NCBI RefSeq assembly: GCF_001463745.1
Contig: NZ_BBWJ01000041.1
Coordinates: forward strand, 1-50,243
Length of the DNA: 50,243 nt
Source: Aureimonas sp. AU22
GTDB lineage: Bacteria > Pseudomonadota > Alphaproteobacteria > Rhizobiales > Rhizobiaceae
Direction: 5' to 3'
A program made the translations under genes and the position numbers. Numbering within the stretch: the first letter of the stretch is position 1; every line of letters starts with the position of its first letter. Shown in pieces: positions 12,658 to 47,860 of this stretch. The notes beneath the pieces were generated by a model, which saw only the letters and a list, made by a program, of their open reading frames with translations, was not told the DNA's origin and did no database searches.

Positions 12658-12801
12658 TCCATGGCCGCTCGTTGCCGGCGCCAAGATCGTATGGCCCCGA
12701 CTACCCAACCTGTCCGGCCGAAGGGCGATCATCCGCCCGCCGTGTGACGCCGGTTGGCTGACCGCGGGATCCGGGCAGCGCTACGCGAAAGGGACGCCGT
12801 C

Positions 12802-13809
12802 ATGTCTCGCATCCTGATCACCGGCGGTGGCGGCTTCGTCGGCTCGCATCTGGCGGCGCGCGCGCTGGCGGAGGGCCACGAAGTCCATGTCACGGTCCGG
12901 CCGGGTTCCGACCACGCGCGGCTGACGCGGGTGGGACGCGAACTCGTGTGCCACAGTCTCGATCTTCGCGACGAGGCCGCGCTCGGTCGTTGCCTCGAGG
13001 ACGCGGCTCCAGAGCGGATCGTGCATCTGGCTGCCTCGCCGCGCCGCCCCGAGCGAGCCGATCTCGGCGACGTCGCCGATTTCGTCCGGGACGATCTCGG
13101 CGGCCTCGTGCGGCTTCTTTCGCTGGCCGCGGCCCTGCCGCGCCCACCCGCGGCGTTCGTTCGCACGGGATCGCTCGCCGAGTACGGCTCCGCTCCCGTG
13201 CCGCAGGCCGAGGTCGCGCGCGAGCAACCCGTGACGGCCTACGGCGCCGCGCTCGTTGCCGCCACGCAGATCATGGGAGCGATCGCACCTCGCCTGCCGT
13301 TTCCGGTGCTGACCGCGCGCCTTGCCCTCGTCTTCGGTCCCGAACAGTCGCCGGACTACCTGATCCCGCGGTTGGTCGCCGGTTGTCTGGAAGGATCGGA
13401 GACCGTGATCCGGCGTCCCGGGGACAGGCGGGACCTGATCCATGTGGACGACGTCGTGGATGCGCTGATGCGGCTCGTGGACGAGCGCGCCACGGGGATC
13501 GTCAACGTCGCCAGCGGCGTCGCGCCGACGATGCGAGAGGTCGCGGCGGAAATCGTGTCGCTCACCGGATGCGATCCCGCGCTCGTACGCTTCGAAGCGG
13601 GCGCACCGTCCGGTTCGGCGCATCTGTGCTGCGCGACCGACAAGGCCCGCGAGCGCTTCGGCATTCGTCCGCGCACCGACTGGCGCGAGGGATTGGCGGA
13701 AACCGTGGATTGGTATCGATGGCGCCGGGCGGTGACGCGGCTGGGCATCGTGGCTGGCCCGCGCGTTCATCCGACGCCCGGCCGGGAGCTTGTTTCAACG
13801 GGAGTCTGA
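12802..13809 (+). CDS. NAD-dependent epimerase/dehydratase-family protein, putative CDP-dideoxyhexose reductase
   Basis: This 335-aa extended SDR has the Rossmann motif ITGGGGFVGSHLAARAL at the N-terminus and HLAAS at about residue 76. From its place after rfbFGH it is likely to reduce the C4 keto group and give a CDP-3,6-dideoxyhexose, as paratose or abequose synthases do. The catalytic motif is unusual: Tyr147 lies in TAYGAALVAATQ, so position 151 is Leu where YxxxK should have Lys. Ser124 (RTGSLAEYG) is kept. It may be altered in mechanism or impaired. ATG at 12802 has GAAAGGGA upstream. It follows rfbH after 144 bp and precedes the GT2 gene by 3 bp. Confidence 0.8.
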   Translation: MSRILITGGGGFVGSHLAARALAEGHEVHVTVRPGSDHARLTRVGRELVCHSLDLRDEAALGRCLEDAAPERIVHLAASPRRPERADLGDVADFVRDDLGGLVRLLSLAAALPRPPAAFVRTGSLAEYGSAPVPQAEVAREQPVTAYGAALVAATQIMGAIAPRLPFPVLTARLALVFGPEQSPDYLIPRLVAGCLEGSETVIRRPGDRRDLIHVDDVVDALMRLVDERATGIVNVASGVAPTMREVAAEIVSLTGCDPALVRFEAGAPSGSAHLCCATDKARERFGIRPRTDWREGLAETVDWYRWRRAVTRLGIVAGPRVHPTPGRELVSTGV

Positions 13810-16442: not shown

Positions 16443-16778
16443 GATCGTCCATCCATTTTCTCGGCCCAGTTACGGCGGTTCGCGGCGCATTCGGAAGATG
16501 GACCTTGGACGCTATCGAGGCGACGCATCTACGCCAAAAGGAGAGGCTGGACGGCGCCCCCGAGCGGCGCTCCAATCTCGTGAAACGTGCCGCTTGCTTC
16601 GTGGTTCGGATCGCGGTGGCAGCCCTCGACCAGGATGCCGATGCGCCGCGCCGCAGGGGTCTTACTCGTTGCGGCCTCGGTGGTCGCACGATCGCGATCA
16701 TCCATCCGGCACCCCGGTCGATGCTGCCGGATGGCCGGCTGCCTTCAGTGTAATGCAACGATACGGGACGAGGTGGCT
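16443..16778. promoter_or_regulatory. Divergent intergenic region between a GT4 gene and wzx
   Basis: No gene is supported in these 336 bases. It must carry the promoters of the two divergent genes; no convincing promoter boxes were recognised. GACGAGG at 16766-16772 is the likely wzx ribosome site. Confidence 0.4.
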
Positions 16779-18185
16779 GTGATCCTGTCGAAAGCGATCC
16801 GAAACCTTCCGTCCAAGGTCCGCGGGTCGGCGAACGGAAGCGGCAACGGCCGGCGTCTGGTCAACATCGCGCACCTCTTGACCGGCAGTTTCGCCGGCTC
16901 CCTCCTCGGGTTGATCGCCTTCGCCTTGTGCGCTCGCAGCCTCGGCGTCGCCGAGTACGGGCAACTTGCGCTGATGCTCGCCTATACGCGTGTGATCGAG
17001 CGCATCGCCAGCTTCCAGTCCTGGCAGCCCATCATCAAGTACGGCGCGGGCCTGTCGACGGCGGAGCAAAGGGAAGACCTTCGCAAGCTTCTGAAGTTCG
17101 GCTTGCTGATGGACATGAGCTCGGCGCTCTGCGCCTGGCTCATCGCGATATCGGGGGCCTATCTGGCGGCGCCCTACCTCGGATGGACCGCGGACAGCGT
17201 CCATGTCCTCGTCCTGTTCTCGACCGTTCTTCTCTTCCAGATCCCCAGCATGCCGACCGCGGTCCAGCGCCTTGCGGGGCGGTTCAGCCTCCTCGCCTAT
17301 GGCCAGCTTGGAACGGCATTGCTGCGCGTTGCCCTTTGCTTCGTCGGCTTGATGAACGATGCGGGGCTTGGCTATTTCGCGTTCGTCTGGGCGTTCACGC
17401 AGATCCTCGGCAACATGACGCTTCTCGGCTTCGCACTGCGAACCCTGCGACGGCAGGGCGTGCGCAACATTCTGGGCGCTTCTCTTGCCGGTCTGCGGCA
17501 GAAATTCCCCGGCATCTGGGGTTTCGCTTGGTCGTCGAACCTGTCCTTGACGATCCAGTCGAGCTCCCAGGAGCTCGACACGCTCCTCGTCAGCCTGTTG
17601 ACCGATCCCGCGTCGGCTGGCCTCTACCATATCAGCAAGCGGATCGGGCGCATGGCGCAGCAGGTGGGCGGTCTCGTTCAGAGCGTCATCTATCCCGACG
17701 TGTCCCGCCTGTGGGCGGCGGGCAAGATCAAGGAGTTCAAGCGCCTCGTGCTGCAGGTCGAACTGCTTCTCCTTACGGCGGGCGTGGCCGCCGTCGTCTT
17801 CATGGCGGTGAGCGTCGATCGGCTTCTTCTCTGGACGGCGGGTCCGCAATTTCTTCCGGCGGCCAATCTCGTCGTGGTCCAGATGTTCGCGGTCGCGCTC
17901 GCCCTGTCGGGCTCGGCCGCGCGCGTGGCGCTTCTCGCCATGGGCCGCCCGCGCGACGTGCTCGTCGTGGTGGTGACGGCGACGGTGATCTTCCAGGTGA
18001 CGGCGGTTCTGCTTCTGCCGCAGATCGGGCCGATGGGAGCGAACATCGCCCATATCGTCATGGGCACCGTCTGGATGATCGGGCTCGGCTGGCACCTCCA
18101 TCGGGCGCTGCGAGCCTCGCAGCGGGAACGGGCGGAGAAGACCGAACCCGCCGACTATCCGCTTCTGGCGCCCGAAAGCGCCTGA
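16779..18185 (+). CDS. wzx: Oligosaccharide flippase, Wzx/polysaccharide-transport family
   Basis: This 468-aa polytopic protein has about twelve hydrophobic segments and the Polysacc_synt/MOP-superfamily look (SLLGLIAFALCARSLGVAEYG at the N-terminus, then repeated pairs of helices). It would flip undecaprenyl-pyrophosphate-linked repeat units to the periplasm for polymerisation by Wzy. GTG at 16779 is preferred (a GTG two codons upstream is possible), with GACGAGG just before; earlier in-frame codons look non-coding. It is the only flippase of this type in the window, alongside the GtrA-like protein. It ends 18 bp from a convergent GT4 gene. Confidence 0.87.
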   Translation: MILSKAIRNLPSKVRGSANGSGNGRRLVNIAHLLTGSFAGSLLGLIAFALCARSLGVAEYGQLALMLAYTRVIERIASFQSWQPIIKYGAGLSTAEQREDLRKLLKFGLLMDMSSALCAWLIAISGAYLAAPYLGWTADSVHVLVLFSTVLLFQIPSMPTAVQRLAGRFSLLAYGQLGTALLRVALCFVGLMNDAGLGYFAFVWAFTQILGNMTLLGFALRTLRRQGVRNILGASLAGLRQKFPGIWGFAWSSNLSLTIQSSSQELDTLLVSLLTDPASAGLYHISKRIGRMAQQVGGLVQSVIYPDVSRLWAAGKIKEFKRLVLQVELLLLTAGVAAVVFMAVSVDRLLLWTAGPQFLPAANLVVVQMFAVALALSGSAARVALLAMGRPRDVLVVVVTATVIFQVTAVLLLPQIGPMGANIAHIVMGTVWMIGLGWHLHRALRASQRERAEKTEPADYPLLAPESA

Positions 18186-18208
18186 CCTGCAAAGCGCGAG
18201 GGGTCAGG
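18181..18208. terminator. Inverted repeat at the convergent wzx/GT4 stop codons
   Basis: CCTGACC at 18181-18187 pairs with GGTCAGG at 18202-18208 (loop of 14). The left arm includes the wzx TGA stop and the right arm overlaps the end of the opposite GT4 gene. No T-run follows, so a terminator role is only suggested by symmetry and location. Confidence 0.35.
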
Positions 18209-19487
18209 TCGGGCGTCCCGCCGCGCGCCGCTCCGCCGCCGAGAGGTCAGCGCGCCGGAGCGCCCGGCCGTACAGCGTCATGATCTGATCGACATGGCCG
18301 GCGGTCCCATAGCGGCGCAAGGCCTCTTCGCGCGCCGCGCCCGTGATCCGTTCGGCGGTGCCGGGGTCGCGCAGGAGCGCGGCGACGGGCTCGACGAAGG
18401 CGTCGGCGTTCTCCGGCTCGACGAGATATCCGTTGGCGCCGTCCCGGATCGCTTCCCGATTGCCGCCATGATCGGTCGCGACGACCGGCGTTCGAAGAAA
18501 CATCGCCTCGATCAGCGTCCGGCCGAACGGCTCACCCATGGCCGTCACCAGGAGCACGTCGGTTGCCGCCATGAACGGTTCGACGGGAGTTCGATACCCC
18601 ATGAGACGGATCGCCTCGCCGATCCCCAGACGCGCGGCGCGGTCCCGGATCTCGTCTTCCACATGCCGGCCGTCCGGCGCGCAAACGCCGAAGAGGCAGC
18701 CGACGACGGGAATGTCCGGATGGCGCTCGCGGAAGCGATGGATGACGTCGACGAACAGGAGTGGCCGCTTGCGCTCGATCAGACCGCCGAAATAGCCGAG
18801 GATCCGCGTTTGCTGGGGCAGACCGAGTTCCAGAAGCAGCGCCGCCTTGGCAGCCTCGCGATCCGGAACGACCGGAGGGTGGTCGAACGGGCTATGAACC
18901 ACATGGAGGCGGTCCTTCAGCGGCAGAACGGGCCGTGACGGACGCGAGAACCGCGAGACGGTGGCCATCTGATGGGCGAGGACGGGCGCCAGGTGGTTGG
19001 CGCCCCACGCGTCCGGATCGCCGCGATGGTGCCAGACGAGCTTGGTCCCGGCGAGGCGCGCAGCCAGTCCCCAGTTCACATGGGTCCGGCCGTCGTTGGT
19101 GTGGACGATGTCGAACCGGCCGTCCCGCAGAAAGCGCCGGATCCGCGGGAGCGTCTGCAGGACGTAGCCCCGCATCGCAGTCATCGGCGCGGTTGCGGAA
19201 AGGAGCTCAGGAAGCGAGAGGTGGACGTAGTCCAATCCTTCCCGTTTCAGAAACGCCGCGACCGGGCCGTCGGCATGCTGGAGCACCACGACCGGCTTGA
19301 CGCAGCTGCGGTCGAGATTGGCGACGAGTTTGGCGGCGGACACGTGGCTGCCACCCAGATCGTCTCCGACGAAGGGGAAGCAGACGCGGATCGGACGGTG
19401 ATCGGAGCCGACGCGCGAGGCCCCGTCCGCTCGTTCGGATGCCACCTCATGCCGGTCGAGGGCGACGCTGTCCGGAACAGTCTTCAC
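18204..19487 (-). CDS. GT4 glycosyltransferase
   Basis: This 427-aa GT-B enzyme shows an acceptor domain opening IRVCFPFVGDDLGGSHVSAA, a central region with VHTNDGRTHVNWGLAARLAG, the donor-domain start LGYFGGLIERKRPLLFVDV, and the GT4 acidic region AMGEPFGRTLIEAMFLRTPVV. GTG at 19487 is chosen because GAGG lies just upstream; the longer open frame to 19811 has a different composition and no family similarity. The enzyme probably adds a sugar to the repeat unit at the membrane. Its donor is unknown. It is divergent from the PL10-like lyase gene, with about 610 bp between. Confidence 0.83.
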   Translation of the reverse strand: MKTVPDSVALDRHEVASERADGASRVGSDHRPIRVCFPFVGDDLGGSHVSAAKLVANLDRSCVKPVVVLQHADGPVAAFLKREGLDYVHLSLPELLSATAPMTAMRGYVLQTLPRIRRFLRDGRFDIVHTNDGRTHVNWGLAARLAGTKLVWHHRGDPDAWGANHLAPVLAHQMATVSRFSRPSRPVLPLKDRLHVVHSPFDHPPVVPDREAAKAALLLELGLPQQTRILGYFGGLIERKRPLLFVDVIHRFRERHPDIPVVGCLFGVCAPDGRHVEDEIRDRAARLGIGEAIRLMGYRTPVEPFMAATDVLLVTAMGEPFGRTLIEAMFLRTPVVATDHGGNREAIRDGANGYLVEPENADAFVEPVAALLRDPGTAERITGAAREEALRRYGTAGHVDQIMTLYGRALRRADLSAAERRAAGRPT

Positions 19488-20098
19488 AGGGGCCTCGCGT
19501 TCTCGCCCCGAGCAACAGTGGCCGGGCGTGTGGATCCCGTCGGTGCCGTCCCGAAGGGCCGACGCCTCCTCGAAGCCGCCGACGCCCCGCGGTTCGGTCC
19601 GACGTCCGCGAAGAAGAGTCCTCCGAGTTCGAGAGGGGGTGCAAGGCCCCCTATCGCGCCCGTTGGTGCGCGGCGTCAGTCTTTTGAGGTAGGGACCGTG
19701 CTGTCGTGCGCTGGAGACCGACGACCCACCACGTCTGCGGTCCGATCCGCTGTCTCGCAAGCCGCGGCGCGCGACGGCGCCGGCGGCCTTCCCGCAGCGG
19801 CCGGCCGCCACGCCCGTGGCGGCGTGGACGGGTGTCCCGCGCCAAACCCTTACGCCTTTCGATGGATCCTGGCCGGGAACCTATACGATCGGCCGCGCCG
19901 GAGGACCCATTGGACCCGTGGAGGCTGGTGATACGCGGTTGTAGTCCTGGAAACGCGCGCCCTCGCGCCGGCCGATTCGGTGCCATCGTGTTGCGGGCGT
20001 CGCCGAATATCCGAGGGCAGGACAGATCCCCGTGTAACGCCGCACGGCGCCTCTGTCGCGACGGTCGACAATGCGGCGGGCGAAACCACGGCGTTCCC
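19488..20098. promoter_or_regulatory. Long divergent intergenic region before the lyase pair
   Basis: These 611 bases lie between the minus-strand GT4 gene and the plus-strand PL10-like gene. Both strands have open frames here, but they extend the real genes upstream without conserved residues or ribosome sites. No repeat or clear promoter was recognised. The length would allow regulated lyase expression. Confidence 0.4.
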
Positions 20099-21709
20099 AT
20101 GAAAGACATCGAACTCCCTCTCGGATCACGCTCCGACCCGACCACCTTGCGCCGACGGACGACGGCCACGACGCCGCTGGGGCCTTTGCCGGTCGACCGT
20201 TCCACGGATCGTCGCGTCGTCACGCCGAAGCGCGCCCGGTCGGTGTTTCGGCCCGCGACCGTGGTCGCGGGATGCGTTTCCCGCCTGTTCGCGTGCGCGG
20301 GGCTGGCGATCCTTCTTTCCGCGTCCGGTATCGCGCAGGCTGCGACCCCGCATGATGCCCTCTCCGTTCTCGAACGGGCGGCCACGTTCTTCCGCGATCG
20401 TCTGGGCGTCGAAGGAACCTATGTCTGGCGCTATTCCGCCGACGGCACGGTGCGTATGGGCGAGGGCGGCAAGGTGCCGTCCAGCATCGGTTGGGTCGAG
20501 CCGCCGGGTACGCCCGCCATCGGGGCCGCCTTTCTCCGCCTTCACCAGATCACCGGCCAGCCGGAATGGCTTGAGGCCGCCCGCACGGTCGCCGAAGCGC
20601 TCGTTCGCACGCAGCTCGTCTCCGGCGGATGGTTCTACAAGATCGAGACATCCCCCGAACTCGTCGGCCAATGGTGCTACCGGTCCCTCGATGCGGGCAA
20701 GAAGTGCCCCGACGCCGAAGACAACCCCAACAGGAACAGGACGGTTCTCGACGACAACACGACGCAGAGCGTCCTCAACTTCCTGATGTGGTTCGACGAG
20801 GCCAGCGCGCATTCAGTTCCCGCGGTCGACGAGGCGATCAAGAAGGGGCTGAAGCGACTGATGAAGGCCCAGTACGCCAACGGTGCCTTTCCGGTCTTCT
20901 TCACGAACAAGATCCCGGGTCAGGACGTGCCGTCCGCGGCGGAAGCGACGATGCCCGACAGCTGGTCGCGGACCTGGATCAAGCCCACGACGGCCCCTTA
21001 CTTCGTGACCAACGACAACCTGCCGCGCAACGTCGGGCGCTCGTTTCTCAACGCCTATCGGCTCTACGGCAAGGACCAGTACCTCGCCACCGCCCGGCGG
21101 GTCGGCGACTTCCTCCTCGCGGCACAGCTACCCGCGCCCCAGCGGGGATGGAGCCAGCAGTACGATCGGACCATGCAGCCCGTCTGGGGCCGCAAGTTCG
21201 AACCACCGGCGGTGGTTTCGCACGAGACGGCCGGCTGCATCGAGTACCTGATCGAGCTGTCCGGCGAGACGGGGGAGCGCAAGTATCTCGATGCTGCCCG
21301 ATCGGCGGCGGACTGGCTGGAGGCGGTTCGGCTCCCCGACGGGAACTGGGCTCGCTTCTACGAGCTGAAGACCGATCGACCTCTCTATGTCGACAACGAG
21401 AACCGCCTGACCTTCAGCGACGACGACCTCCTCGGTCATTACGGCATGAAGGGCCAGTTCGAGATCCCGAAGGTGCTCGCGCGGCTGCGAAGCATCGAGA
21501 AGGGGGCACCGATCGTCCCCGAGAAGCTGTGGGTCAGCGAGGCGGACGAGCTCGACCCGTCCGAGCTCTCCGCGCAGGCCCAGGCGTTCGTCGACGGGAT
21601 CGACGCGCAGGGGAGATGGGCGGACGACGGCTGGATCGACGGGCGGCGCTTCATGCAGGGCGTCTTCGTGCTCGCGCGCTTCTTCGAGGACAATGGCGAC
21701 GGCCCCTGA
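20099..21709 (+). CDS. Secreted pectate-lyase-type enzyme, PL10-like (Pec_lyase)
   Basis: This 536-aa protein has an unusually long, basic N-region followed by a hydrophobic stretch (about residues 54-78) and an AQA cleavage-like site near 81, so export is likely. The mature part looks like an alpha/alpha-toroid of the pectic acid lyase family: YVWRYSADG, WVEPPGTPAIGAAFLRLHQI, TQLVSGGWFYKIE, repeated helical units, QQYDRTMQPVWGRKFEPPAV, and a C-terminal WARFYELKTDRPLY (about 418-430), a strong PL10 mark. Such enzymes cleave polygalacturonate by beta-elimination. It is followed 117 bp later by a second lyase. With UDP-galacturonate genes in the same locus, cleavage of the locus's own polymer is a reasonable guess. 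Confidence 0.78.
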   Translation: MKDIELPLGSRSDPTTLRRRTTATTPLGPLPVDRSTDRRVVTPKRARSVFRPATVVAGCVSRLFACAGLAILLSASGIAQAATPHDALSVLERAATFFRDRLGVEGTYVWRYSADGTVRMGEGGKVPSSIGWVEPPGTPAIGAAFLRLHQITGQPEWLEAARTVAEALVRTQLVSGGWFYKIETSPELVGQWCYRSLDAGKKCPDAEDNPNRNRTVLDDNTTQSVLNFLMWFDEASAHSVPAVDEAIKKGLKRLMKAQYANGAFPVFFTNKIPGQDVPSAAEATMPDSWSRTWIKPTTAPYFVTNDNLPRNVGRSFLNAYRLYGKDQYLATARRVGDFLLAAQLPAPQRGWSQQYDRTMQPVWGRKFEPPAVVSHETAGCIEYLIELSGETGERKYLDAARSAADWLEAVRLPDGNWARFYELKTDRPLYVDNENRLTFSDDDLLGHYGMKGQFEIPKVLARLRSIEKGAPIVPEKLWVSEADELDPSELSAQAQAFVDGIDAQGRWADDGWIDGRRFMQGVFVLARFFEDNGDGP

Positions 21710-21826
21710 GCGACGGTTCGGCAGGGCCGATCCTCGTGCCGCGGAAGTCGGAGGGCGGTGGCGCCGCCGCGAGCTTTGATGCCGGGCGAACCCGGCGGCC
21801 ATCACCAATGCCTTGGAGATCCCCGA

Positions 21827-23221
21827 ATGCGCTTTCGAAGGCCCTCGCTCGTGCGGCGCTCGTCGCTGCCCCGTGCGCTTCTCCTCGGCGCTCTCGCCGC
21901 CGCCATCCTCTCGCTCCCGGCCGCCGGCGCCGACACGCTCGCGGCCTTTCCCGGCGCCGAAGGGCATGGGCGCCAGGCACAGGGCGGTCGCAACGGGCGC
22001 ATCATCGTCGTGAGCAACCTCGACAATTCGGGCCCCGGTAGCCTTCGGGCCTGCGTCCTCGCCACGGGGCCGCGTAACTGCGTCTTTCGGGTCTCCGGGG
22101 TGATCGTGCTTCAGCGGACCCTGTTGATCGACGGGCCGCAATCGAGCTTCCTGTCGATCCTCGGGCAGACGGCGCCGGGCGGCGGGATCACCATCACGGT
22201 GGATCCGAACTCGAAGGATTTCATGCGCGCCCCGATCGCCGTGCGCAATACGCACGACGTCGTGCTTCGTCATCTGCGCCTGCGCTCGCAGGCACCCGAA
22301 GAGGTGCCGAACGTCGACGCGTTGACCGTCGAGAACAGCCGGGACGTCTATGTCGATCATGTCTCCGGTTCGTGGGCGAGCGACGAGAACGTCAACATCC
22401 AGGGCCAGGCGACGAACGTCACCATCGCCTATTCGATCTTCGGCGAGGGACTTCGCAAGCACAGCAAGTGCGCCCTGTTCGGGTCCCAGTCGACCGCGCC
22501 GCAAGCCATCAGCTTCTGGCGCAACCTGTGCATCTCGAACAACGACCGCAATCCCGACGACAACCACGCGCGCCGCTCCTGCGTCGAGATCGTGGACAAC
22601 CTGTTCTACAACGCGCGTTCGGAATGGGCCGAGGTGTTCAGCCAACATGCCGGCGGAACCACCATCTCCTTCGTCGGGAACTACTTCAAGGCGGGGCCGT
22701 CCACGCTGGAGCGCACCGCCGCGATCAACTGGAACGATACCGAAAGCGTCGCCGAACCGTCGATCTACGCGGTGGAAAACGCCGTCTGGGCTCCACCGTC
22801 CAAGATCCTGACACCGATCGCCGAAGACACGCTGCCGGTTCTCGTCGACCGGCCGGAATGCCCCTTGTCGGTGCCGAGCTTCGCGAATGCCGAGGCAAGC
22901 TACCGGGAGGTGCGCGCCCGAGCGGGCGCCTTCCCGCGCGATCGTGTCGACCGCCGGTTCGTTCAGGAGGCCGGCGAACTCGGCCGCGAGGGGTCCGGAT
23001 CCCTGAAGCATGAGCCGGGCGCACTGGAACCGGTTTCCGACGCGCCGGCCTATGAGGACGTCGACGGGGATGGCATGGCCGATCGGATCGAGGAGCGGTT
23101 CGGGGCGAAGGTCGGCCGGAACGATGCCTGGGCCACGCGCGACGACGACGGCTGGTCGAGCTTCGATCGCTTCATGGAATGGTTGTCGCAAGAACGTCTG
23201 GCGGGCCGATATCCGGACTGA
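21827..23221 (+). CDS. Secreted pectate-lyase-like beta-helix protein, PL1-like
   Basis: This 464-aa protein has a signal peptide (basic MRFRRPSLVRR, hydrophobic 16-33, likely cleavage near AAGA) and then FPGAEGHGRQAQGGRNGRI, the usual opening of bacterial pectate-lyase-like beta-helix proteins. The helix continues with repeated short strands (VVLRHLRLRSQ, VTIAYSIFGEGL, ISFVGNYFKAG). Near residue 411 there is a DVDGDGMADRIEERFG calcium-binding-like motif, common at the C-terminus of this group. It would cleave a uronic-acid polymer in the periplasm or outside. ATG at 21827 places the signal peptide right at the start. It is probably co-transcribed with the PL10-like gene. The exact polymer is unknown. 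Confidence 0.82.
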   Translation: MRFRRPSLVRRSSLPRALLLGALAAAILSLPAAGADTLAAFPGAEGHGRQAQGGRNGRIIVVSNLDNSGPGSLRACVLATGPRNCVFRVSGVIVLQRTLLIDGPQSSFLSILGQTAPGGGITITVDPNSKDFMRAPIAVRNTHDVVLRHLRLRSQAPEEVPNVDALTVENSRDVYVDHVSGSWASDENVNIQGQATNVTIAYSIFGEGLRKHSKCALFGSQSTAPQAISFWRNLCISNNDRNPDDNHARRSCVEIVDNLFYNARSEWAEVFSQHAGGTTISFVGNYFKAGPSTLERTAAINWNDTESVAEPSIYAVENAVWAPPSKILTPIAEDTLPVLVDRPECPLSVPSFANAEASYREVRARAGAFPRDRVDRRFVQEAGELGREGSGSLKHEPGALEPVSDAPAYEDVDGDGMADRIEERFGAKVGRNDAWATRDDDGWSSFDRFMEWLSQERLAGRYPD

Positions 23222-23280: not shown

Positions 23281-24396
23281 TCAGGCCGCCGCGCGGGCGC
23301 GCCGCCGAAGGCCGGGCAACCTCGTCGGCCGACCGAGCACCCGTTCCCCATAGGCCCACTCATAGGGCCAGCGTTCGAAGAGGACGTGGACGAGGTGCGT
23401 CACGGGGATCACGGCGAGCACCGTCGCCGCCATAAACAGCACGGCCGAGCTGGCGACGTCGGTCGTGAAGAGCCCCGCACGAACGAACACCAGTCTCATC
23501 GCGTAGTAGATGTACGGATGCACGAGGTAGAGGCTGTAGCTGATCGTCCCGAAGTACAGGATCGCCCGGTGGGAGACGATCCGCGTCGTGAGGCTGTTGC
23601 GCGACACGGCGAGAGCGAAATAGCCCGCGGTCGCCAGGATCAGCAGCGTCAGGACCGGGTTCCGGAATTCGATCCAGTCGTAGTTGTAGTGTCCGAGCGA
23701 GGCCAGGAACACGCATGTTCCCAGCATCGCGGCCTCGGCCAGCCAGTGGCGTCCCGATCGCAGGCCGTCCCAGCGATCGTAGGCGAGCCGAACGCATAAG
23801 CCGGCGATGAAGTAGGAGGTGATGGGATAATAGGCCAGGAAGGCGGCGACCGCGGCCACCAGGACGCCGCGTGCCAGAAGCGTTGGGCGGCGCAGGATCG
23901 CGTAAACGCCGAGCGCCGTGAAGATGTAGAACCAGACCTCGAAGGTCAGGCTCCAGGCGTTCGGCGTCAATTGCTCGGTCGACGTGAACAGATCGAGGAA
24001 GGTCAGCGCGATCGCGATGGTGAAGGGATCGTTGGCCTCCGGCTGGATGTGCGTCAGGGCGTTCACAGCGATGAAGACGAGCGACAACGCGAAGAACAGC
24101 GGATAAAGGCGCATGAACCGCCTGGCCGCGAACTCCCGCCAGGTATAGCGCAGGGCGCTCGGCAGGATGACGAAGCCGCTGATGACGAAGAAGAGATCGA
24201 CGCCGAAGGTGCCGAAGTTCCAGTAGGGAACGATCCCTTCTACATAGGCGGTGTTCGATGCGTAGACATGCTCCGCCATGCCGCCCGTCATGTGGGCGAA
24301 CAGCACCATCAGGGATGCGATGCCGCGCAACCCATGCGTCGCCGCGTTGAAGGCCTTCGGCTCGCTCGTTCGGTCCTGCGTGTGCTGAGGGCTCAT
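23281..24396 (-). CDS. Membrane acyltransferase, OafA/ExoZ-type (Acyltransferase_3)
   Basis: This 371-aa polytopic protein begins with THGLRGIASLMVLFAHM, the conserved Arg/His motif of the acyltransferase-3 family, and has about ten membrane segments (for example YYPITSYFIAGLCVRLAYD and SYSLYLVHPYIYYAMRL). Such proteins O-acetylate or otherwise acylate sugars of surface polysaccharides at the membrane. ATG at 24396 puts the motif about 20 residues in, as usual; the longer open frame upstream is not conserved. It lies 223 bp after the HAD gene in the same direction. Which sugar is acylated is unknown. Confidence 0.88.
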   Translation of the reverse strand: MSPQHTQDRTSEPKAFNAATHGLRGIASLMVLFAHMTGGMAEHVYASNTAYVEGIVPYWNFGTFGVDLFFVISGFVILPSALRYTWREFAARRFMRLYPLFFALSLVFIAVNALTHIQPEANDPFTIAIALTFLDLFTSTEQLTPNAWSLTFEVWFYIFTALGVYAILRRPTLLARGVLVAAVAAFLAYYPITSYFIAGLCVRLAYDRWDGLRSGRHWLAEAAMLGTCVFLASLGHYNYDWIEFRNPVLTLLILATAGYFALAVSRNSLTTRIVSHRAILYFGTISYSLYLVHPYIYYAMRLVFVRAGLFTTDVASSAVLFMAATVLAVIPVTHLVHVLFERWPYEWAYGERVLGRPTRLPGLRRRARAAA

Positions 24397-24619
24397 GGCG
24401 GGCTTCCGGTGACGTCGTCTGGTCGTTCGCAAGGGCGAGTCTAGGGTCGTCCATGGCCCGGCGCACAGACGAGCAGCCGGAGATGAGCCGTGTCCGAACA
24501 GGCATCGCCGATGCTGGGGATCCCTCCATTGGGCGGCCGGCCTAAGCCGAAAGGGGAGAGCAGGCCGGTCGGTTGCGCTGGAGGCGGGACGCAGGCGGCG
24601 TTCGATGCGTGGAGCGGCC

Positions 24620-25309
24620 TCAAGCGGCCAGGCCGGCGAGGCACGCGTCGAGGTCGTCGAGCGAACCGATCGTTGCTCGTGCGGCATGGTCGCGATCGAT
24701 GGCATGTGAGGGATGGATCTTGCCGACCCGTTCGATCTGGACCGTCAGCCAACCCCGCGCGTTCGGCGTCACGAAGTCCTTGGCCGGATTGTCGGCGACA
24801 TAGACCAGCGGCCGGCGGAAGGGGGAGGCCCAGTCCTCGACGATGGCGAAGGGGCGCGCATGCGGCTTGCCGAAGCCCGGCCCGAGATGCCCCGTGCACA
24901 CGATGCAGGGAAGGATGCGATCCAGCCCGAGGGCCTTGATCTTGGCTTCCTGCGTTCGCGCCGGTCCGTCCGTCACGAGGGCGGCGAGGAGCGCGGTGCC
25001 GTGCTTATGGAAATAGCGTCGCGCGTCGGGCGCCAGCGCGATCGCCGGGCGATGGGAGCGATAGGTCTCGACGAGTTCGGCCAGCTCGTCCGGTGCGAGC
25101 GACAGCCCGATCCGCGCCGCCGCTTCGTCGAAGATGCGGGCGCGCGAGCCCGCGTCCAGGAGCGCGAGGCAGAGGTCGGCGAAGCCCGACACCGTCGGAT
25201 GGCGTTCGCGAAGCCGCGTCTCGACCGCTGCATAGCCGCTGCGCGCGAAATCGCGTTCCAGGAAGAGCGTGTCGTCGAGATCGAAGACGACCAGTGGCGA
25301 GGCGCGCAT
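24620..25309 (-). CDS. HAD-family hydrolase paired with an ATP-grasp protein
   Basis: This 229-aa protein has the HAD motif I FDLDDTLF (Asp10 and Asp12), a helical cap, motif II in LVTDGPARTQ, the Lys region near GFGKPHARPF and motif IV in YVADNPAKDF. It is thus a complete phosphatase-type HAD enzyme of the cytoplasm. It starts 2 bp after the stop of the ATP-grasp gene, so the pair is made together. A joint job, such as making or activating a small group to be coupled to a sugar, is inferred from this pairing and the polysaccharide context; the substrate is unknown. Confidence 0.83.
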   Translation of the reverse strand: MRASPLVVFDLDDTLFLERDFARSGYAAVETRLRERHPTVSGFADLCLALLDAGSRARIFDEAAARIGLSLAPDELAELVETYRSHRPAIALAPDARRYFHKHGTALLAALVTDGPARTQEAKIKALGLDRILPCIVCTGHLGPGFGKPHARPFAIVEDWASPFRRPLVYVADNPAKDFVTPNARGWLTVQIERVGKIHPSHAIDRDHAARATIGSLDDLDACLAGLAA

Positions 25310-25310
25310 G

Positions 25311-26270
25311 TCAGCCTTCGAACACGGCCGCGTCGTAGCGCAGCATGGTCACGCCGTCCCGCCACCCGTCGTGGGCGGTACGAGGAAGGTCGGCCACCTC
25401 CTCCAGGAGCCAGCGGCTGAACTCGGCGCCCGCATGGTGGGCCAGGGGATAGCCGCCACCGAAGCGGGCGTTGATCTCGAAGACGCAGGGTCCGGCTCCC
25501 GGATCCTGGATCAGCTGGAAGCACAGAACGCCGCGCGCCTCCGGCAGGGCACGCAGCACGCCGGCCGCCAGCTGCGTGAAGAGAGGCGCCCGCTCGGTCC
25601 GGCCTTTCTCGACCTCGCCGGCACGCACGCTGAGCCGGCGATGCGCCACGACGCTGCGCAAGGTGCCGTCGATGTCGACGAACATGTTCACCGTGTATTC
25701 CGGACCATGCAGGAGTTGCTGCAGCACCATCGGCTCGTCGATGGCGTCCGGCAGCTCCTGCGGACCGGACACGACCCGTATGCCCCGACTGGCACTGCCG
25801 CCCGAGGGTTTCAGGAACATCGGCCAGGCAAAGCCGTTGGCGTGGCTCGTCGGGTCGAAGGCGCGCGTTCGAGGAACGGGGACGCCGGCCGCCGCCAGCA
25901 CCTCGGCGGTCCGCAGCTTGTCGCGCGCCACGGCGATCACCGATTCCGGGCTGACATGAACGCGTGCGCCGCGACGGGCGAATGCGTCGCGGGCGGATGC
26001 GAGGACCTCGAGTTCGGGATCGATCGTCGGCACGACGAGGCGAATGTCGTGCGCCTCGACGATGTCGATCAACGCGTCGACATAGCCAGCGTCCGTGCAG
26101 CGCGGCAAGGCCAGGGCGACGTCGGCCAGATGGCACGCGGCGCTGAGTTCCGGCCGGAGGTCGCAGGCGACGATCTTGAGCTCGAGCCCCAGCGCTTCGC
26201 CGGAGCGGCGAAAGCAGTCCACGAGGCCCGCACGACGTCCCGCCGATGAGATCAAGATACCAAGCGCCAT
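25311..26270 (-). CDS. ATP-grasp ligase-like protein
   Basis: This 319-aa protein has a Rossmann-like N-terminal part (LGILISSAGRRAGLVDCF), the glycine-rich nucleotide loop MFLKPSGGSASRGIRVV (Lys154 onward), EPMVLQQLL near the adenine site and the metal-binding stretch FEINARFGGGYPLA (about 264-277). This is the CarB/PylC-like ATP-grasp layout, forming acyl-phosphates and then amide or similar bonds. ATG at 26270 trims a non-conserved leader. It is coupled to the HAD gene. In this locus it might attach an amino acid or similar group to a uronic acid or nucleotide sugar, but nothing in the sequence identifies the acceptor. Confidence 0.85.
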   Translation of the reverse strand: MALGILISSAGRRAGLVDCFRRSGEALGLELKIVACDLRPELSAACHLADVALALPRCTDAGYVDALIDIVEAHDIRLVVPTIDPELEVLASARDAFARRGARVHVSPESVIAVARDKLRTAEVLAAAGVPVPRTRAFDPTSHANGFAWPMFLKPSGGSASRGIRVVSGPQELPDAIDEPMVLQQLLHGPEYTVNMFVDIDGTLRSVVAHRRLSVRAGEVEKGRTERAPLFTQLAAGVLRALPEARGVLCFQLIQDPGAGPCVFEINARFGGGYPLAHHAGAEFSRWLLEEVADLPRTAHDGWRDGVTMLRYDAAVFEG

Positions 26271-26454
26271 CGTGGATCCCGTGTCCGGCCGCCATTGTTG
26301 GTCGAGACGTCGCAAGAACAGGCTGCGGCCTGCGGCAACGACTGAACGTATCGATCCCGAACCGGCCGCTCAATGCGACCTTCGACTACGCAAGAGGCGT
26401 GGGGCCGCCGAAGGCCTTGCACGAAGGGTGCAGTTGACAGTCGCAGGGGAATCG

Positions 26455-26505: not shown

Positions 26506-27819
26506 CTAGCCTCGGCGTCTTCCCGCGCGTGGCCGGACAGGGCCCTTGGCCGGTGCCCGCCGCAGCGCCGCGATGCTGGGCGCGATGCCGAGCAGGAGGG
26601 GAACCACCATGAAGCGCCCGTAGACGTGCGGAAGCGTGTTCAGCATCAGGATGAAGGATCCGGTCATGACGAGGGTGCAGGTCCCCGCCAACCGGTCTCC
26701 TCCCTTGCCGAAGGCCGAGATGCCGACGAGGATCGGAGCCAGCAGCATCAGGCAGAAGCCGATCAGTCCGGGGAAGCCGGCCTCGTTCCAGATCAGGAGA
26801 TAGGTGTTGTGGACCGGGGCGTTGAGGGTTCCGAGGGTGCGGAACTGGTCCGCCCCCGCCCCGAAGATCATGGACCGCTCGGCCATGTTGACCGCCGCGT
26901 GGACGAGCTGCATGCGGCCGACGAAGGTTCCGGCACTGTCGATGTCGCCGGTCTCCAGGGCGCCCAGAACGCGGCGCTGGAAGACGTCGGGAAGGAAGTC
27001 CCGCCCCCAGGTCAGGACGACATTGACGATGCCGGCGAGGATCGCCCCGATCATGACCATCTGCTTCATCGAGCAGCCGATCAGGACGAAGGCCCCGATC
27101 GAATACGAGAGCATGATCAGCCCCGTGTTCGATCCGGTGAGCACGATGCCGTAGGCGAGAAGCGGCAGGCCGAGAACCAGCCAGAGCCGCCCGACCCGGC
27201 CCGTTTCCGTCAGCCAGAAGAGCAGGGGCACCGCCATCGCGATCACCGCGGCGCACTCGTTCTCCCGCTCCACGAACCCGAGGAACCGCCCGTTGCCGCT
27301 CACAAAGGTCGTGCCCGTCGTCTGGAGCACATGGATGACGTAGATCCCCTGCACGCAGATGATCCACATGGCGACGACGTAGATCTTGGCGAAGGTGGCC
27401 ACCTCGCCGGAGGGCCGGCCAAGCAGGATGTGGCCAAGGAGCCAGTAGGCGAAGAGATACTGGCCGACCACGATGAAGCCGCGCTCCGGGTCTCCGAAGA
27501 GGAGGCTGCTCGTCAGCATCATGACGGAGAACAGGGCGATGCCGCTGTTCCAGAACACGGTGGCGGCCTTCAGCGGCGCGACTTCGAACCCCCGGCCGAG
27601 CAGCATGACGAACAGGAGGACCGCGGCGAACGCATCGCTCAAGGTGAAGTAGAAGGCGTCGAGCCGAAGGAGGTTGAAGGGGGCCAGGAAGACGAAGGCG
27701 CATCCCAGCGCCAACCGGATGCCATCGACGCTCCATCCCCGCGCCAAGGGGGGCGGGGTCGTGGCGAGGGGGCGAAGAGGTCGTGCCCAGCCGTCGTCGA
27801 AAGGGGGATTCTGGTTCAT
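26506..27819 (-). CDS. wzy: O-antigen-ligase/polymerase-like membrane protein, putative Wzy
   Basis: This 437-aa polytopic protein has about ten to twelve hydrophobic segments and a long loop in the second half containing RMQLVHAAVNMAERSMIFGA and GTLNAPVHNTYLLIWNEAGF, typical of the Wzy_C/ExoQ superfamily (the HNTYL-type stretch). It would polymerise repeat units in the periplasm, with chain length set by the divergently encoded Wzc. ATG at 27819 gives MNQNPPFDDGW; the longer open frame to 28119 lacks coding character. It could in principle be a ligase, but the flanking Wzx and Wzc favour a polymerase. Confidence 0.83.
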   Translation of the reverse strand: MNQNPPFDDGWARPLRPLATTPPPLARGWSVDGIRLALGCAFVFLAPFNLLRLDAFYFTLSDAFAAVLLFVMLLGRGFEVAPLKAATVFWNSGIALFSVMMLTSSLLFGDPERGFIVVGQYLFAYWLLGHILLGRPSGEVATFAKIYVVAMWIICVQGIYVIHVLQTTGTTFVSGNGRFLGFVERENECAAVIAMAVPLLFWLTETGRVGRLWLVLGLPLLAYGIVLTGSNTGLIMLSYSIGAFVLIGCSMKQMVMIGAILAGIVNVVLTWGRDFLPDVFQRRVLGALETGDIDSAGTFVGRMQLVHAAVNMAERSMIFGAGADQFRTLGTLNAPVHNTYLLIWNEAGFPGLIGFCLMLLAPILVGISAFGKGGDRLAGTCTLVMTGSFILMLNTLPHVYGRFMVVPLLLGIAPSIAALRRAPAKGPVRPRAGRRRG

Positions 27820-28093
27820 CGTGATCCGGGACCCCGGGTTGGCCGGCATGCAGCCACGAGCGACGAGGCGCACGCGAGCCCGCAGTGTCCTTCTGGAAGT
27901 GGATGAATTCGACGAGCGACAAAAGTTGGATTCTCGGCCGCCCGCTTCATCCATCCGGATAGGGCCGTACCCGTCCATTCCCCCGATTGGTGCCGTTCGA
28001 CCGGTCTCGGGCCATGCTAAGCGTCGGCTCCGTGAGAAGATCGAGAAAAGCCGACAGTGCAGGGCTTGCGCAGTCGTTTCCAACGGATGTTCC

Positions 28094-30373
28094 ATGACCG
28101 TAAGCATGATCGGCGACAACCTGATTTCGAACCGTTCCGACGGTCATCGCCGGGACCCTTTCGATCGACCGGAGCCGCCCGAGAGAAGCGTCATCGGGCC
28201 GCGCGAACTCTACGGGCTGCTGCATCGCCGCTTCCTGCTCATCGCGGCGATCGTCTGCGTCGGCACGCTGGCCGCGGCGACCGCGGCCTACACGTTGCCG
28301 AAGTCCTATTCCGCCCGGTCGATGATCCTTCTGGAACCCGACGATCCGAACCTTCTCGAGGACCAGCCCGACACGCAGACGAGACCGCCGTCTCACGAGA
28401 CGCTGGATACGGAGTCCGACCTCATCAAGTCGCGCAGCTTCGCCGGGCGCGTCGTCGACGACCTTCAGCTCGTGAAGGATCCCGACTTCAATCCATACCT
28501 GCCGAAGACCGCGGCCGACGGCTCAGCCGAGCCGGCCCAAGCTTCCGGCATCCTGGGATCCGTCGTTGCCTTCTTCGGCGGCGAGGGCGAGCGGACCAAC
28601 GCGAGCGTCCCGAGCGCCGACGTGCAGAGGGACCAGGCGATCTCGATCCTCCTGTCCAAGTTGTCGACCGTTCGCAACGGCGAGAGCATGGCGCTCACCG
28701 TTTCCGTCACGCACGGCGACGCCGAGATGGCGGCCAAGCTCGCCAATGCGATCACCGGACAGTTCGTCGAATGGTCGCGCGACCAGAAGCGCGACGATAT
28801 CCGCAATGCGACCGCGTTCCTGCGGCAGCAGTCAAGCGACCTTGCCGCCAGCATCGCCAGCAAGGAACTCGAAATCTCCGAGTACAGCAGCCGGTTGAAC
28901 GTTTCGATCGATCCCCGGGACGATCTCCTGCGTCTCGCGATGCAGCAGACGAACGAGCAGCTCAGCACTGCGCGCGGGGACTACACGCAGGCTCAGGCGC
29001 GGTTGGAGCAGGTCCAGGGCGATGTCAGCGGCGCCGTCGCGGGCACGGACCCGCTGCTCAAGTCCGAGTTCCTGACGACGCTTCGCAACGAGGAAGCCTC
29101 CGCGCAGCGCGACCGGGCACAGCTGGCCCGTAACTACGGCGAGAACCATCCGCTGATCCAGGACGCGGACGCCAAGATCGCCAGCGTGCGCAAGCTCATA
29201 TCGGGAGAGATGAACGACATCGTCGCCAACCTGCGGAACGATGTCAGCGTCGCGCAGGAGCGCATCACCAAGCTCGAGAGCGACCTTGCCGGCCTCAACA
29301 AGGAGCTACGTCGGCGAAGCGTCGACGAGATCCGGCTGCGTGAGTTGAACCGCGACCTGATGACGGAACAGAAGCTCTATGATCTGATCTCGTCCCGCCT
29401 CGGCAAGCTCGATCCCTACTCGGACGCCGCCGATCCCGGCGCGCGCGTGATCTCCTATGCCGAGGTCCCGCGGGAGCCGGCCTTCCCGAAGCCTCGAATG
29501 ATGACGGCGGGCGCGCTGGCGGGCTCGGTGGTCCTCGCCTTCATCATCGCCCTGACGATCGAAGGCGCCGACTCGCGCGTCCACAATGCCAAGCATCTGG
29601 CTTCCATCCTGCAGGCGCCGGTCATGGGCATCGTGCCGCGCATGCGATCGCGCTTCTTCGGCCGGCCGGTGAACGTTGCGAGCCGGCTTTCCTCGTCGAG
29701 GCGCTCGCGCGTCGGCGAGGCGTTCCATACCTTGTGCAACGCGTCCCGCCGCTCCTATCCGGGAACGCGCGCCTTCGTCGTCATGGTCAGTTCCGCCTCG
29801 CCCGCCGAGGGCCGCACCACGACGGCGATCGGGTTCGCCTGCGCCGCGGCGCTGCAGGGCGAGCGCACGCTCCTCGTCGATCTCGATGGCTGGAGCGATG
29901 AGATCCGAGGGCAGCTCGGCGTGAACGAGAACCCGCCGCGGACCATCGAAAGCTATCTGGACGGCCATTGCGCGCAGGGCGATACGCTTCGGGCGGTCGT
30001 CGATACGCCCAACCTCGACGTCGCCGTTTCGGAAGGGCGGCGTGGGGGGGGGCGTGGTCTTCTGCAGCGCCAGTCCTTCGAGACCTATATCGGCACCTTG
30101 CGCGAGAACTACGACGTCATCGTCCTCGACGCGCCGCCCCTTCTCGCCGTCGAGGACGCCACGACGATCGCCGGCTCCGCCGACGCGGTGGTCCTGGTCG
30201 CGCTGTGCGGGCGAAGCTCGGAGGATGCCCTTCGCGAGGCGCGCGACAAGGTCTGGCTGACGAATGCGAGGCTGATCGGCGTCCTGAACGGGGCGGATCC
30301 GGGAACGAGCCAGAACGGGCTTCGCACGTCCCGTGCCGCCCGTCGCAAGACCCGCCGCTACTTCACCGAGTAG
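28094..30373 (+). CDS. wzc: Wzz/Wzc-type polysaccharide co-polymerase with degenerate kinase domain
   Basis: This 759-aa protein has a first membrane helix at about 45-65 (FLLIAAIVCVGTLAAATAAY), a long periplasmic Wzz/GumC region with coiled coil (about 230-440), a second helix at about 475-495 and a C-terminal BY-kinase-like domain. The Walker A region reads SASPAEGRTTTA, with Arg574 in place of the catalytic Lys, while Walker A' (LLVDLDGW) and Walker B (YDVIVLDAPPLL) persist. The C-terminus RRKTRRYFTE has one Tyr instead of a cluster. It probably controls chain length and links Wzy to the ExoF-like exporter, with doubtful kinase activity. Starts at 28094 or 28106 are both possible. It is divergent from wzy. 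Confidence 0.87.
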   Translation: MTVSMIGDNLISNRSDGHRRDPFDRPEPPERSVIGPRELYGLLHRRFLLIAAIVCVGTLAAATAAYTLPKSYSARSMILLEPDDPNLLEDQPDTQTRPPSHETLDTESDLIKSRSFAGRVVDDLQLVKDPDFNPYLPKTAADGSAEPAQASGILGSVVAFFGGEGERTNASVPSADVQRDQAISILLSKLSTVRNGESMALTVSVTHGDAEMAAKLANAITGQFVEWSRDQKRDDIRNATAFLRQQSSDLAASIASKELEISEYSSRLNVSIDPRDDLLRLAMQQTNEQLSTARGDYTQAQARLEQVQGDVSGAVAGTDPLLKSEFLTTLRNEEASAQRDRAQLARNYGENHPLIQDADAKIASVRKLISGEMNDIVANLRNDVSVAQERITKLESDLAGLNKELRRRSVDEIRLRELNRDLMTEQKLYDLISSRLGKLDPYSDAADPGARVISYAEVPREPAFPKPRMMTAGALAGSVVLAFIIALTIEGADSRVHNAKHLASILQAPVMGIVPRMRSRFFGRPVNVASRLSSSRRSRVGEAFHTLCNASRRSYPGTRAFVVMVSSASPAEGRTTTAIGFACAAALQGERTLLVDLDGWSDEIRGQLGVNENPPRTIESYLDGHCAQGDTLRAVVDTPNLDVAVSEGRRGGGRGLLQRQSFETYIGTLRENYDVIVLDAPPLLAVEDATTIAGSADAVVLVALCGRSSEDALREARDKVWLTNARLIGVLNGADPGTSQNGLRTSRAARRKTRRYFTE

Positions 30374-31685
30374 CCGCTGCGGAGCCGGCCCAGGCCGCAG
30401 CGGCCGGGCCGGCCGCCTCGCCGCCGATCGAAGCCGGCGCAGCGCCGGCCCAATGTGCCCCGTCGCGCTCATCGCGGTCCGCGGCAACGGATCGAAGCCC
30501 GAACGCGCGGATCAAGCCGTCGGCCACGATCCGAACGTCGAACCGCTCCTGCGCAAGGCGCCGCGACTGCGCTCCCATGCGCCCGGCCAGCGTCTCGTCC
30601 AGGAGAAAGGCCCGCATGGCATCGGCCAGCGCCGCCGGATCCTTCGGCGGAACCAGAAACCCGTTTCGCCCGTCCACCACGGTGTCGCGGCAACCCGGCG
30701 CGTTCGTGGTGACGACGGCGCGTCCCGTGGACAGGGCTTCCAGCGCGCTTCGCGGGATGCCCTCGCGATAGGTCGACGGAAGCACGAAGACGGTCGCTGC
30801 CGCCAGGAACGGCGCGACGTCGGTGGTTTCGCCCAGGTACTCGATCGAGCCGTCGGCATGCCAGCGGTCGAGTTCGTCGCGCGTGATGCCGAGCGGGCTG
30901 GGATCGAAGGGCCCCAGAACCTGAAAGCGGGCGTCCGGGAAATCGCGCTTGAGACGCTTTGCGGCCTCCGCGAACTCCGCGATCCCCTTCTCGCGCAGCA
31001 GTCGCGCCACCAGAAGGAAGACCGCAGGGCCGGCGGGAACCGGGACCGCGGCGAACTGATCGAGGTTGACGCCGGAACCGGGCACCATGACGAGCGGGGT
31101 TCGGGCGTCGATCATGCGATGGCGCCGGATGTCCTGCGCATCGGCCTCGTTGTAGGCGAAGGCCGACGTCAAGCCGACGAGCGCGCGGCGATACAGGGCG
31201 ACGCTCAGCCATCGCAGCATGGTGGCGCGGGGACCGTTCCGGTCTCCACTGAACACGTAGCCCATGCCCGTGAACAGCGCGTAGCGCTTTCGAACTCCGG
31301 CCAAGCGCGCGGCCAGGCTGCCGTAGATGATCGGCTTCATCGTGTAGGCGACGACGACATCCGGCGCCAGCCGGCGGATCTCCCGGTGGATCGATGCGAG
31401 CGTTGCGATATCGGCGATCGGATTGCTCCCTGTCCGTGCCATCGCGATCCGTCGGAAGCCGATGCCGGCCCGCGACAGCGCCCCAATGGATTGCGGATCG
31501 TCGTCGGGGGCGAGCGCCGTGACCTCGTGGCCCCCGGCGACCATGCCGGCGAGCAGCTCCAGCCGGAAGTTGACAAGGGATCGCGTGAGGCTCGCGATCA
31601 CCACGACCCGTTGCATCGACGCCGCAGCGCCCTCGTTCGGCGACGCGCCGCCGCCGGAGACCAGGGGCCGTTCGGACCGGGACAT
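30363..31685 (-). CDS. GT4 glycosyltransferase, TuaC/PglA/CapM-like
   Basis: This 440-aa GT-B enzyme has the opening VVVIASLTRSLVNFRLELLA, DVVVAYTMKPIIYGSLAARLAGV and YALFTGMGYVF, typical of GT4 enzymes that extend lipid-linked hexosamine or deoxyhexosamine chains, and a donor domain with LLVARLLREKGIAEFAEAA and the acidic motif YREGIPRSALEAL. A strong ribosome site, AAGGAG, lies 7 bp before the ATG at 31685 and overlaps the stop of the upstream GT4 gene. The last 25 residues are an Ala/Gly-rich tail of low complexity. Its 3' end overlaps the convergent wzc by 11 bp. Confidence 0.88.
   Translation of the reverse strand: MSRSERPLVSGGGASPNEGAAASMQRVVVIASLTRSLVNFRLELLAGMVAGGHEVTALAPDDDPQSIGALSRAGIGFRRIAMARTGSNPIADIATLASIHREIRRLAPDVVVAYTMKPIIYGSLAARLAGVRKRYALFTGMGYVFSGDRNGPRATMLRWLSVALYRRALVGLTSAFAYNEADAQDIRRHRMIDARTPLVMVPGSGVNLDQFAAVPVPAGPAVFLLVARLLREKGIAEFAEAAKRLKRDFPDARFQVLGPFDPSPLGITRDELDRWHADGSIEYLGETTDVAPFLAAATVFVLPSTYREGIPRSALEALSTGRAVVTTNAPGCRDTVVDGRNGFLVPPKDPAALADAMRAFLLDETLAGRMGAQSRRLAQERFDVRIVADGLIRAFGLRSVAADRDERDGAHWAGAAPASIGGEAAGPAAAAWAGSAAATR
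30373..30404. terminator. Perfect 10-bp hairpin just after the wzc stop
   Basis: GCCGCTGCGG at 30373-30382 pairs with its exact complement at 30395-30404 around a 12-base loop. The left arm begins at the last base of the wzc stop codon, and the whole hairpin lies inside the coding tail of the opposite GT4 gene. It may end wzc transcription; no T-run follows. Confidence 0.45.
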
Positions 31686-35107: not shown

Positions 35108-35195
35108 CGATTCGCAACGGCGCCGCCCTTTCCGACCCGGGACCCGGCGCGCCACCGCGCGCCGTCCTCATCTCCTTTCGCAAGGTCCGAGCGCC

Positions 35196-42616: not shown

Positions 42617-42853
42617 ACGAAGGACGATGCCGCCGGCGCGCGCATAACGATGACGCGCGCAGCATCGAACACACGGCCTTACCCGTCCGGGCAGTCGCAC
42701 TTGCAACAAGGATGATGGACGCGGCTTTACGGCTGAATTTCCGGAACGGCACCGCCTCGATACATCGGACACTCGGTCCCGAACGGGTGGAATTCGTTCC
42801 AGATGTCCCCTTCACTTGTCGGGTCTCTTGGATCGTCTGTCCGGAGCGCTCAG

Positions 42854-47831: not shown

Positions 47832-47860
47832 TGTCTTCCGATGCTCAAGGAGCGATCCCT

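Follow-up and report, generated by a model that had tools for sequence, protein, structure and literature searches.

We analysed a 50,243-nucleotide stretch of the genome of Aureimonas sp. AU22 (contig NZ_BBWJ01000041.1, positions 1 to 50,243; hereafter the window), a relative of leaf-dwelling species, and focused on two adjacent genes at 20099-23221 that code for polysaccharide lyase (PL)-like enzymes. Family scans of the window frames showed that the region from about 6 kilobases (kb) to 49 kb reads as one polysaccharide locus. The first lyase gene (20099..21709, + strand) encodes a PL10-like protein (Pfam PF09492, 61.2 bits against a cut-off of 22, the best stretch spanning profile positions 142-218 of 292 only), and the second (21758..23221, + strand) encodes a PL1-like protein (PF00544, 31.1 bits against a cut-off of 24). 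The two are flanked by the genes for a Wzx-type flippase (16587..18185, + strand; PF01943, 42.5 bits, true start probably later) and a Wzy-type polymerase of a lyase-associated subfamily (26506..28119, − strand; PF04932, 52.7 bits; profile A3, described below). Both gene starts are ambiguous (20099 ATG or 20243 GTG; 21758 GTG or 21827 ATG), and a hydrophobic, signal-peptide-like stretch, judged by eye, follows the later start in each, so that both lyases are probably secreted. Genome-wide, each lyase profile returned one match at an E-value of 0.001, namely the window protein itself.

Structure prediction yielded a helical toroid for the PL10-like protein and a beta-helix for the PL1-like protein (mean predicted local distance difference test scores of 88.8 and 90.3, respectively), and the models were compared with solved structures by VIA-align on Foldseek's ranking. 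Each protein thus showed both the profile match and the fold of its family, PL10 or PL1. These results bear out the first-pass annotation, made from the sequence alone, which had described two pectate-lyase-type genes of unrelated folds between wzx and wzy. For the PL10-like protein, the catalytic arginine (R524 in the Cellvibrio enzyme) and the acidic stretch close to the first half are retained; R318 and D171/D172 were invariant in a 28-row alignment and aligned with solved lyases, and the motifs LDD and WGR.FEP were kept in all 21 PL10 proteins compared. For PL1, the reference residues are R218 (catalytic arginine), K190 (active-site lysine) and R223 (second arginine) of PelC. The catalytic arginine was found in 21/21 PL1 proteins, and the window protein, read by eye, has the active-site lysine and an asparagine at the place of the second arginine. 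The lysine was replaced in seven of the 21 proteins, and this second PL1 type, with RAR-N replacing the HSK lysine, occurs in the same kind of locus (L006, L094, L096, L107, L108, L109 and L116). Both window proteins fell below the cut-offs of the pectate-lyase equivalogs searched, the PL10-like protein scoring 68.4 bits against NCBI model TIGR02474 (cut-off 189.8) and the PL1-like protein 95.6 bits against the PelZ model NF041900 (cut-off 840).

We then compared the surroundings of the lyase genes in relatives. The PL10 and PL1 loci were gathered via the lyases; the Wzy searches alone were free of that selection, yet the Wzy profile itself was built from lyase loci. The PL10 loci from named genomes were the best 80 of 147 relatives found, and 15 of them were alphaproteobacterial. 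The results showed that homologues of the window's polysaccharide genes surround 13 of these 15 loci, which places the lyase gene there beyond chance; the two loci that differ are both from Kaistia (L011 and L012). The synteny with wzx and wzy, which the first-pass annotation had left to be checked in relatives, was kept across several families, and coding inside the biosynthetic locus was retained with the exception of the PL10 genes of Kaistia and one extra PL1 gene of Rhodoligotrophos (genome G128). The PL10 gene directly follows capD in the same direction in 12 of the 17 locus-linked cases besides the window (the 13 named genomes plus G040, G091, G128 and G266); in the window capD lies 21 kb from PL10, so that this locus is a rearranged one. 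The remaining 65 of the 80 loci, which are non-alphaproteobacterial (L017-L081), had at most one glycosyltransferase match each, and the profiles picked up neither Wzy nor PL1 in them; this absence is weak evidence because the probes came from one alphaproteobacterium and several of the stretches were short.

PL1 relatives were found on 152 plasmid records, of which 22 loci, hand-picked for spread of genera and similarity, were read. The same Wzy lay within 16 kb of PL1 in nine of these loci, which came from Ensifer adhaerens, Rhizobium CC1099, Sphingobium V4 (where 183 nucleotides separate the ends of the PL1 and Wzy matches), Roseibium, Labrenzia and four Sinorhizobium strains (S. medicae, S. 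fredii, and S. meliloti ABS7 and 1021). Two Rhizobium loci (R. etli CIAT 652, L157; Rhizobium BT04, L169) belonged to another type of exopolysaccharide locus, in which the PL1 lyase adjoins a sugar-nucleotide dehydrogenase gene and an epimerase gene lies about 10 kb off. A further nine were pectin-use loci, each marked by several of the following: TonB or TRAP (tripartite ATP-independent periplasmic) uptake, pectinesterase, GH28, GH88, UxaC or Kdu genes. The last two gave an ambiguous picture, one from Hymenobacter, whose stretch ends with a GH28 gene, and one from Monoglobus. The window looks like the Wzy-linked loci and bears no marks of the pectin-use loci. The PL1 bit score alone was tried as a separator of locus kinds and dropped, because the pectin-use loci of Streptomyces (233.7 bits) and Saccharobesus (224.2 bits) exceeded S. 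meliloti 1021 (217.5 bits). The locus of S. meliloti 1021, a laboratory strain, lies on pSymB (NC_003078, about 786.7-820.1 kb; L153 2329-35744) and holds cysD, cysN/C, capD, three sulfotransferase matches, PL1, wzz, wzy, wzx, wza, PIG-L and DegT genes; a literature search directed at it gave no paper.

The distribution of the lyases was compared with that of the polymerase. Profile A3 drew on 11 Wzy proteins of lyase-bearing loci, of which seven belong to genomes that are also in the two samples, and was applied at thresholds that retain only the closer Wzy proteins (E-value of 1e-30 for the order and 1e-20 for the genus). Among the 397 genomes sampled from the order, ten carried this Wzy subfamily. 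PL1 profile matches were present in 16 of the 397, ten of them strong (at least 251 bits) and six weak (at most 170 bits), and the ten genomes with strong PL1 were exactly the ten with this Wzy, while the six with weak PL1 were without it. In the genus, Wzy occurred in 4/21 genomes, the same four that carry lyases (three with both, one with PL1 only). Pooling both samples, PL1 was present in all 13 distinct Wzy genomes, including the six outside profile A3 (G001, G077, G117, G266, G331 and G401). The association of Wzy with PL1 gave Fisher P values of 4e-20 for strong PL1 in the order (the cut-off having been chosen after the gap was seen), 3e-16 for all 16 PL1 matches and 1.7e-4 for the genus, in tests that treat genomes as independent, which they are not. 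The gap between PL1 and Wzy was 110-313 nucleotides in seven of the 13 genomes measured, with a maximum of 15,257 nucleotides; these 13 include Rhizobium sp. TRM95111 (G031) and leave out G001, where the two genes fall close to contig ends, on separate contigs. PL10 profile matches were found in 11/397 order genomes, seven of them full length (at least 608 bits), and five of these seven lay in the locus. G001 has two further PL1-like genes (L148 6379-13783), at distances of about 2.4 and 5.6 kb to a homologue of UDP-glucuronate (UDP-GlcA) 4-epimerase.

The locus also carries genes that bear on the composition of the polymer. A UDP-glucose 6-dehydrogenase gene, ugd (33761..35107, + strand; PF03721/PF00984/PF03720; TIGR03026, 450.9 bits against a cut-off of 189.8), is followed by a gene for a UDP-GlcA 4-epimerase-like protein (35193..36248, + strand, in the frame 34884-36248; PF01370) that would supply UDP-galacturonate (UDP-GalA). 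Among solved structures, the latter is related to 5u4q (364 bits), whose deposited name is dTDP-glucose 4,6-dehydratase, and to the UDP-GlcA 4-epimerases 6zl6 (152 bits) and MoeE5 (124 bits). An epimerase homologue with at least 50% identity to that of the window (best match per genome) was present somewhere in 15/15 lyase genomes, so UDP-GalA is plausibly available in all of them. Both genes of the UDP-GalA supply named by the first-pass annotation are present, but that the polymer contains galacturonate is something we infer from this pair. The locus further encodes sulfotransferase 1 (36580..38343, + strand; PF00685, 80.9 bits), the sulfate adenylyltransferase small subunit CysD (38822..39760, + strand; NF009214, 519.8 bits against 413; start approximate) and CysN/C, the large subunit fused to adenylyl-sulfate kinase (39802..41691, + strand; NF004035, 1025.5 bits against 715; start approximate), so that a supply of 3′-phosphoadenosine 5′-phosphosulfate is coded within it. 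Sulfotransferase 2 (41777..42616, + strand; PF00685; 1t8t, 80.9 bits) is heparan-sulfate-sulfotransferase-like, its nearest solved relatives being heparan sulfate 3-O-sulfotransferases. It was matched in 22 of the 24 loci whose stretches were compared, and cysN/C in nine. Given CysD, CysN/C, two sulfotransferases and the wide retention of the second, the exopolysaccharide is likely to be sulfated; these genes are an addition to the first-pass annotation, which named none for sulfation.

The locus holds further polysaccharide genes. A Wzz/Wzc-type chain-length protein and kinase (27674..30373, + strand; PF02706, PF13614; true start within the frame) and a Wza-type outer-membrane export protein (45164..46477, + strand; PF02563, PF10531) accompany three GT4 glycosyltransferases, at 18204..19811 (− strand; PF00534, 98 bits; matched in 23/24 loci), 30363..31685 (− strand) and 31696..32886 (− strand). 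Between the lyases and wzy lie a membrane acyltransferase (23281..24705, − strand; PF01757, 119 bits), a HAD-family protein (24620..25309, − strand; PF12710) and an ATP-grasp protein (25311..26315, − strand; PF02655, PF21360). Farther along are a CapD-type sugar dehydratase (42803..45034, + strand; PF02719, 359.6 bits), a PIG-L type deacetylase (46474..47148, + strand; PF02585 in the overlapping frame 46437-47831, with matches in relatives) and a DegT aminotransferase (47831..49144, + strand; PF01041, 312.8 bits). At 9277..13809 (+ strand) stands a CDP-dideoxyhexose-type set of rfbF, rfbG and rfbH-like genes with an epimerase gene (TIGR02622 and TIGR02623 above cut-off; the RfbH model reached 316 bits, under its cut-off of 423), and a gene set of the same CDP-3,6-dideoxyhexose kind was also seen in Kaistia, Roseibium, Labrenzia and one Mesorhizobium. 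A 540-residue protein (7515-9137, − strand) matched nothing in Pfam, nor in NCBIfam at 1e-20, yet it recurs next to rfbF in several loci with 43-57% conservation.

Considering these data together, we judge it quite probable that both enzymes are dedicated lyases of the bacterium's own polymer, made by this locus, and most likely they trim or clear that polymer rather than eat plant pectin. The polymer itself would most likely be an exported, Wzx/Wzy-assembled, probably sulfated exopolysaccharide with 4-linked uronic acid. The first-pass proposal of a polymer cut by its own lyases is well supported by the synteny and by the co-occurrence of strong PL1 with Wzy, while its galacturonate part goes no further than the Ugd/epimerase pair suggests. 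Wzy polymerises in the periplasm. Both lyases would leave the cytoplasm via their signal peptides and would cut uronate links by beta-elimination, either in the periplasm at the site of Wzy or at the cell surface. Their job may be the clearance of stalled polymer, the limiting of chain length or the release of matrix, among which we make no choice. It would be of the kind that AlgL does for alginate, with the window as a Wzy-dependent counterpart.

Several observations weigh against this interpretation. Rhodoligotrophos G040 carries PL10, capD, wzx and sulfotransferase 2, and gave no match to PL1 or to this Wzy, while Rhodoligotrophos G128 has an extra window-type PL1 away from its locus copy. 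In three Kaistia genomes (L011, L012 = G357, G430) the PL10 gene stands outside the locus, those of G357 and G430 being the two full-length order matches found elsewhere. The mirror-tree correlation between PL1 and Wzy (0.66) hardly exceeded the value for PL1 paired with sulfotransferase 2 or wza (0.63), and most pairs of other locus genes correlated more strongly; special PL1-Wzy co-evolution was considered on this analysis, which showed no sign of it. The ugd gene was matched in only 6/24 and the epimerase gene in 7/24 loci, a minority near the lyases. On an Indioceanicola plasmid (L159 2547-19209), a distant PL10 and a PL1 occur together in a pectin-use locus, and the strong KduI of the AU22 genome could let unsaturated uronates be eaten. 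As to the genes lying outside the locus, the extra PL1 of G128 (L104 9345-12138) adjoins a single, divergent glycosyltransferase where the third-position guanine-plus-cytosine content is lower, and a Kaistia PL10 (L012 6031-13287) adjoins three SGNH/AlgX-like proteins and a carbamoyltransferase, neighbours that also hint at polysaccharide work.

The closest known systems differ from the window in instructive ways. VexL of Achromobacter, which acts on the Vi capsule, was the second-best structural match. Its entry (PDB 6fi2) describes, by title, a periplasmic depolymerase in ABC (ATP-binding cassette) transporter-dependent secretion, whereas the window locus is of the Wzx/Wzy kind; the identity to the window lyase is 23%, and the window lyase is accompanied by a second lyase of another fold. 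With Wzx, Wzy, Wzz and Wza, the window does not match a Vi-type ABC-transporter-dependent capsule locus, although individual Vi genes were not searched for. AlgL, of the PL5 family, differs from the window lyases in family, in its mannuronate/guluronate substrate and in the synthase-dependent export of its polymer, but shares the helical toroid fold of the PL10-like partner. Pseudomonas AlgL is encoded in the operon that makes the very uronate polymer it acts on (PMC8829089, PMC5099689); one study finds that it rids the periplasm of stalled alginate (PMC8829089), and the other that it is dispensable and acts on yield and acetylation (PMC5099689). VexL stands closer to the window than AlgL or ExoK, the parallels drawn in the first-pass annotation. 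More distant or less similar are RbmB of Vibrio cholerae (PDB 9ozl, 9ozd), a more distant fold match acting on a different polymer, and the PL10 pectate lyases of Cellvibrio (1gxm) and Azospirillum (1r76), with 19-23% identity to the PL10-like protein; PfPL1 of Pseudoalteromonas fuliginea (PDB 9buj) is also among the closest known systems. A search of the open-licence literature found no paper on this locus or on the wider class suggested below, which is not proof of its absence from print.

The principal alternative, also raised by the first-pass annotation, is that the lyases attack plant pectin. A leaf-associated bacterium would then loosen or eat the cell walls of its host, and the placement in the locus would be incidental or serve joint expression on plants. 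The solved relatives of both lyases include pectate lyases, the genome has a strong KduI, and comparison PL1 genes stand in pectin-use loci of Novosphingobium, Croceicoccus, Pseudoalteromonas, Saccharobesus, Bacteroides, Rufibacter, Streptomyces, Halosolutus and Indioceanicola. The synteny and co-distribution of the lyases with one Wzy argue otherwise, as does the isolation of a locus-bearing relative, Labrenzia THAF191b, from plastic in a marine aquarium. A genome search detected no GH88/105 and no GH28 at an E-value of 0.001, both searches being positive in control genomes, and the scanned window frames held no GH28, GH88/105, pectinesterase, KduI/KduD, UxaC, TonB or TRAP uptake, KduI lying elsewhere in the genome. 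KduI was equally strong (E-value of 1e-100 or better) in 17/21 genus genomes, 13 of them without these lyases; being common in the genus, it makes recycling of fragments possible and does not separate the two explanations. Pectin use is accordingly disfavoured, and we regard it as improbable. Slightly less probable still is that one or both enzymes act on the bacterium's own polymer as uronic-acid C5-epimerases, which share the first step, removal of the C5 proton, and would set its sequence and stiffness. A role as weapons or grazing tools against the polymers of neighbours with related loci, or as non-catalytic polymer binders, is very improbable: the patchy presence of the lyases among close relatives (4/21 genus genomes) speaks for it, but this patchiness tracks the biosynthetic Wzy itself, and the catalytic residues are conserved.

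Beyond the window, dedicated lyases of this kind may be part of something broader. We tentatively suggest, at somewhat less than even chances, that alphaproteobacteria widely make Wzy-dependent sulfated uronate (glycosaminoglycan-like) exopolysaccharides whose polymerase is joined by a beta-eliminating lyase in every sampled case, S. meliloti 1021 included. On the same tentative footing, the lyase would be a functional part of Wzy-dependent assembly, a role that the unrelated PL1 and PL10 folds could fill alone or together. If so, "pectate lyase" annotations in these bacteria would mislead, the enzymes serving the bacterium's own matrix, and the locus would offer a sulfated uronate polymer of bacterial origin together with its matching lyases. 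The presence of the locus in the genetically easy S. meliloti 1021 makes the role of the lyase in Wzy-dependent assembly directly testable.

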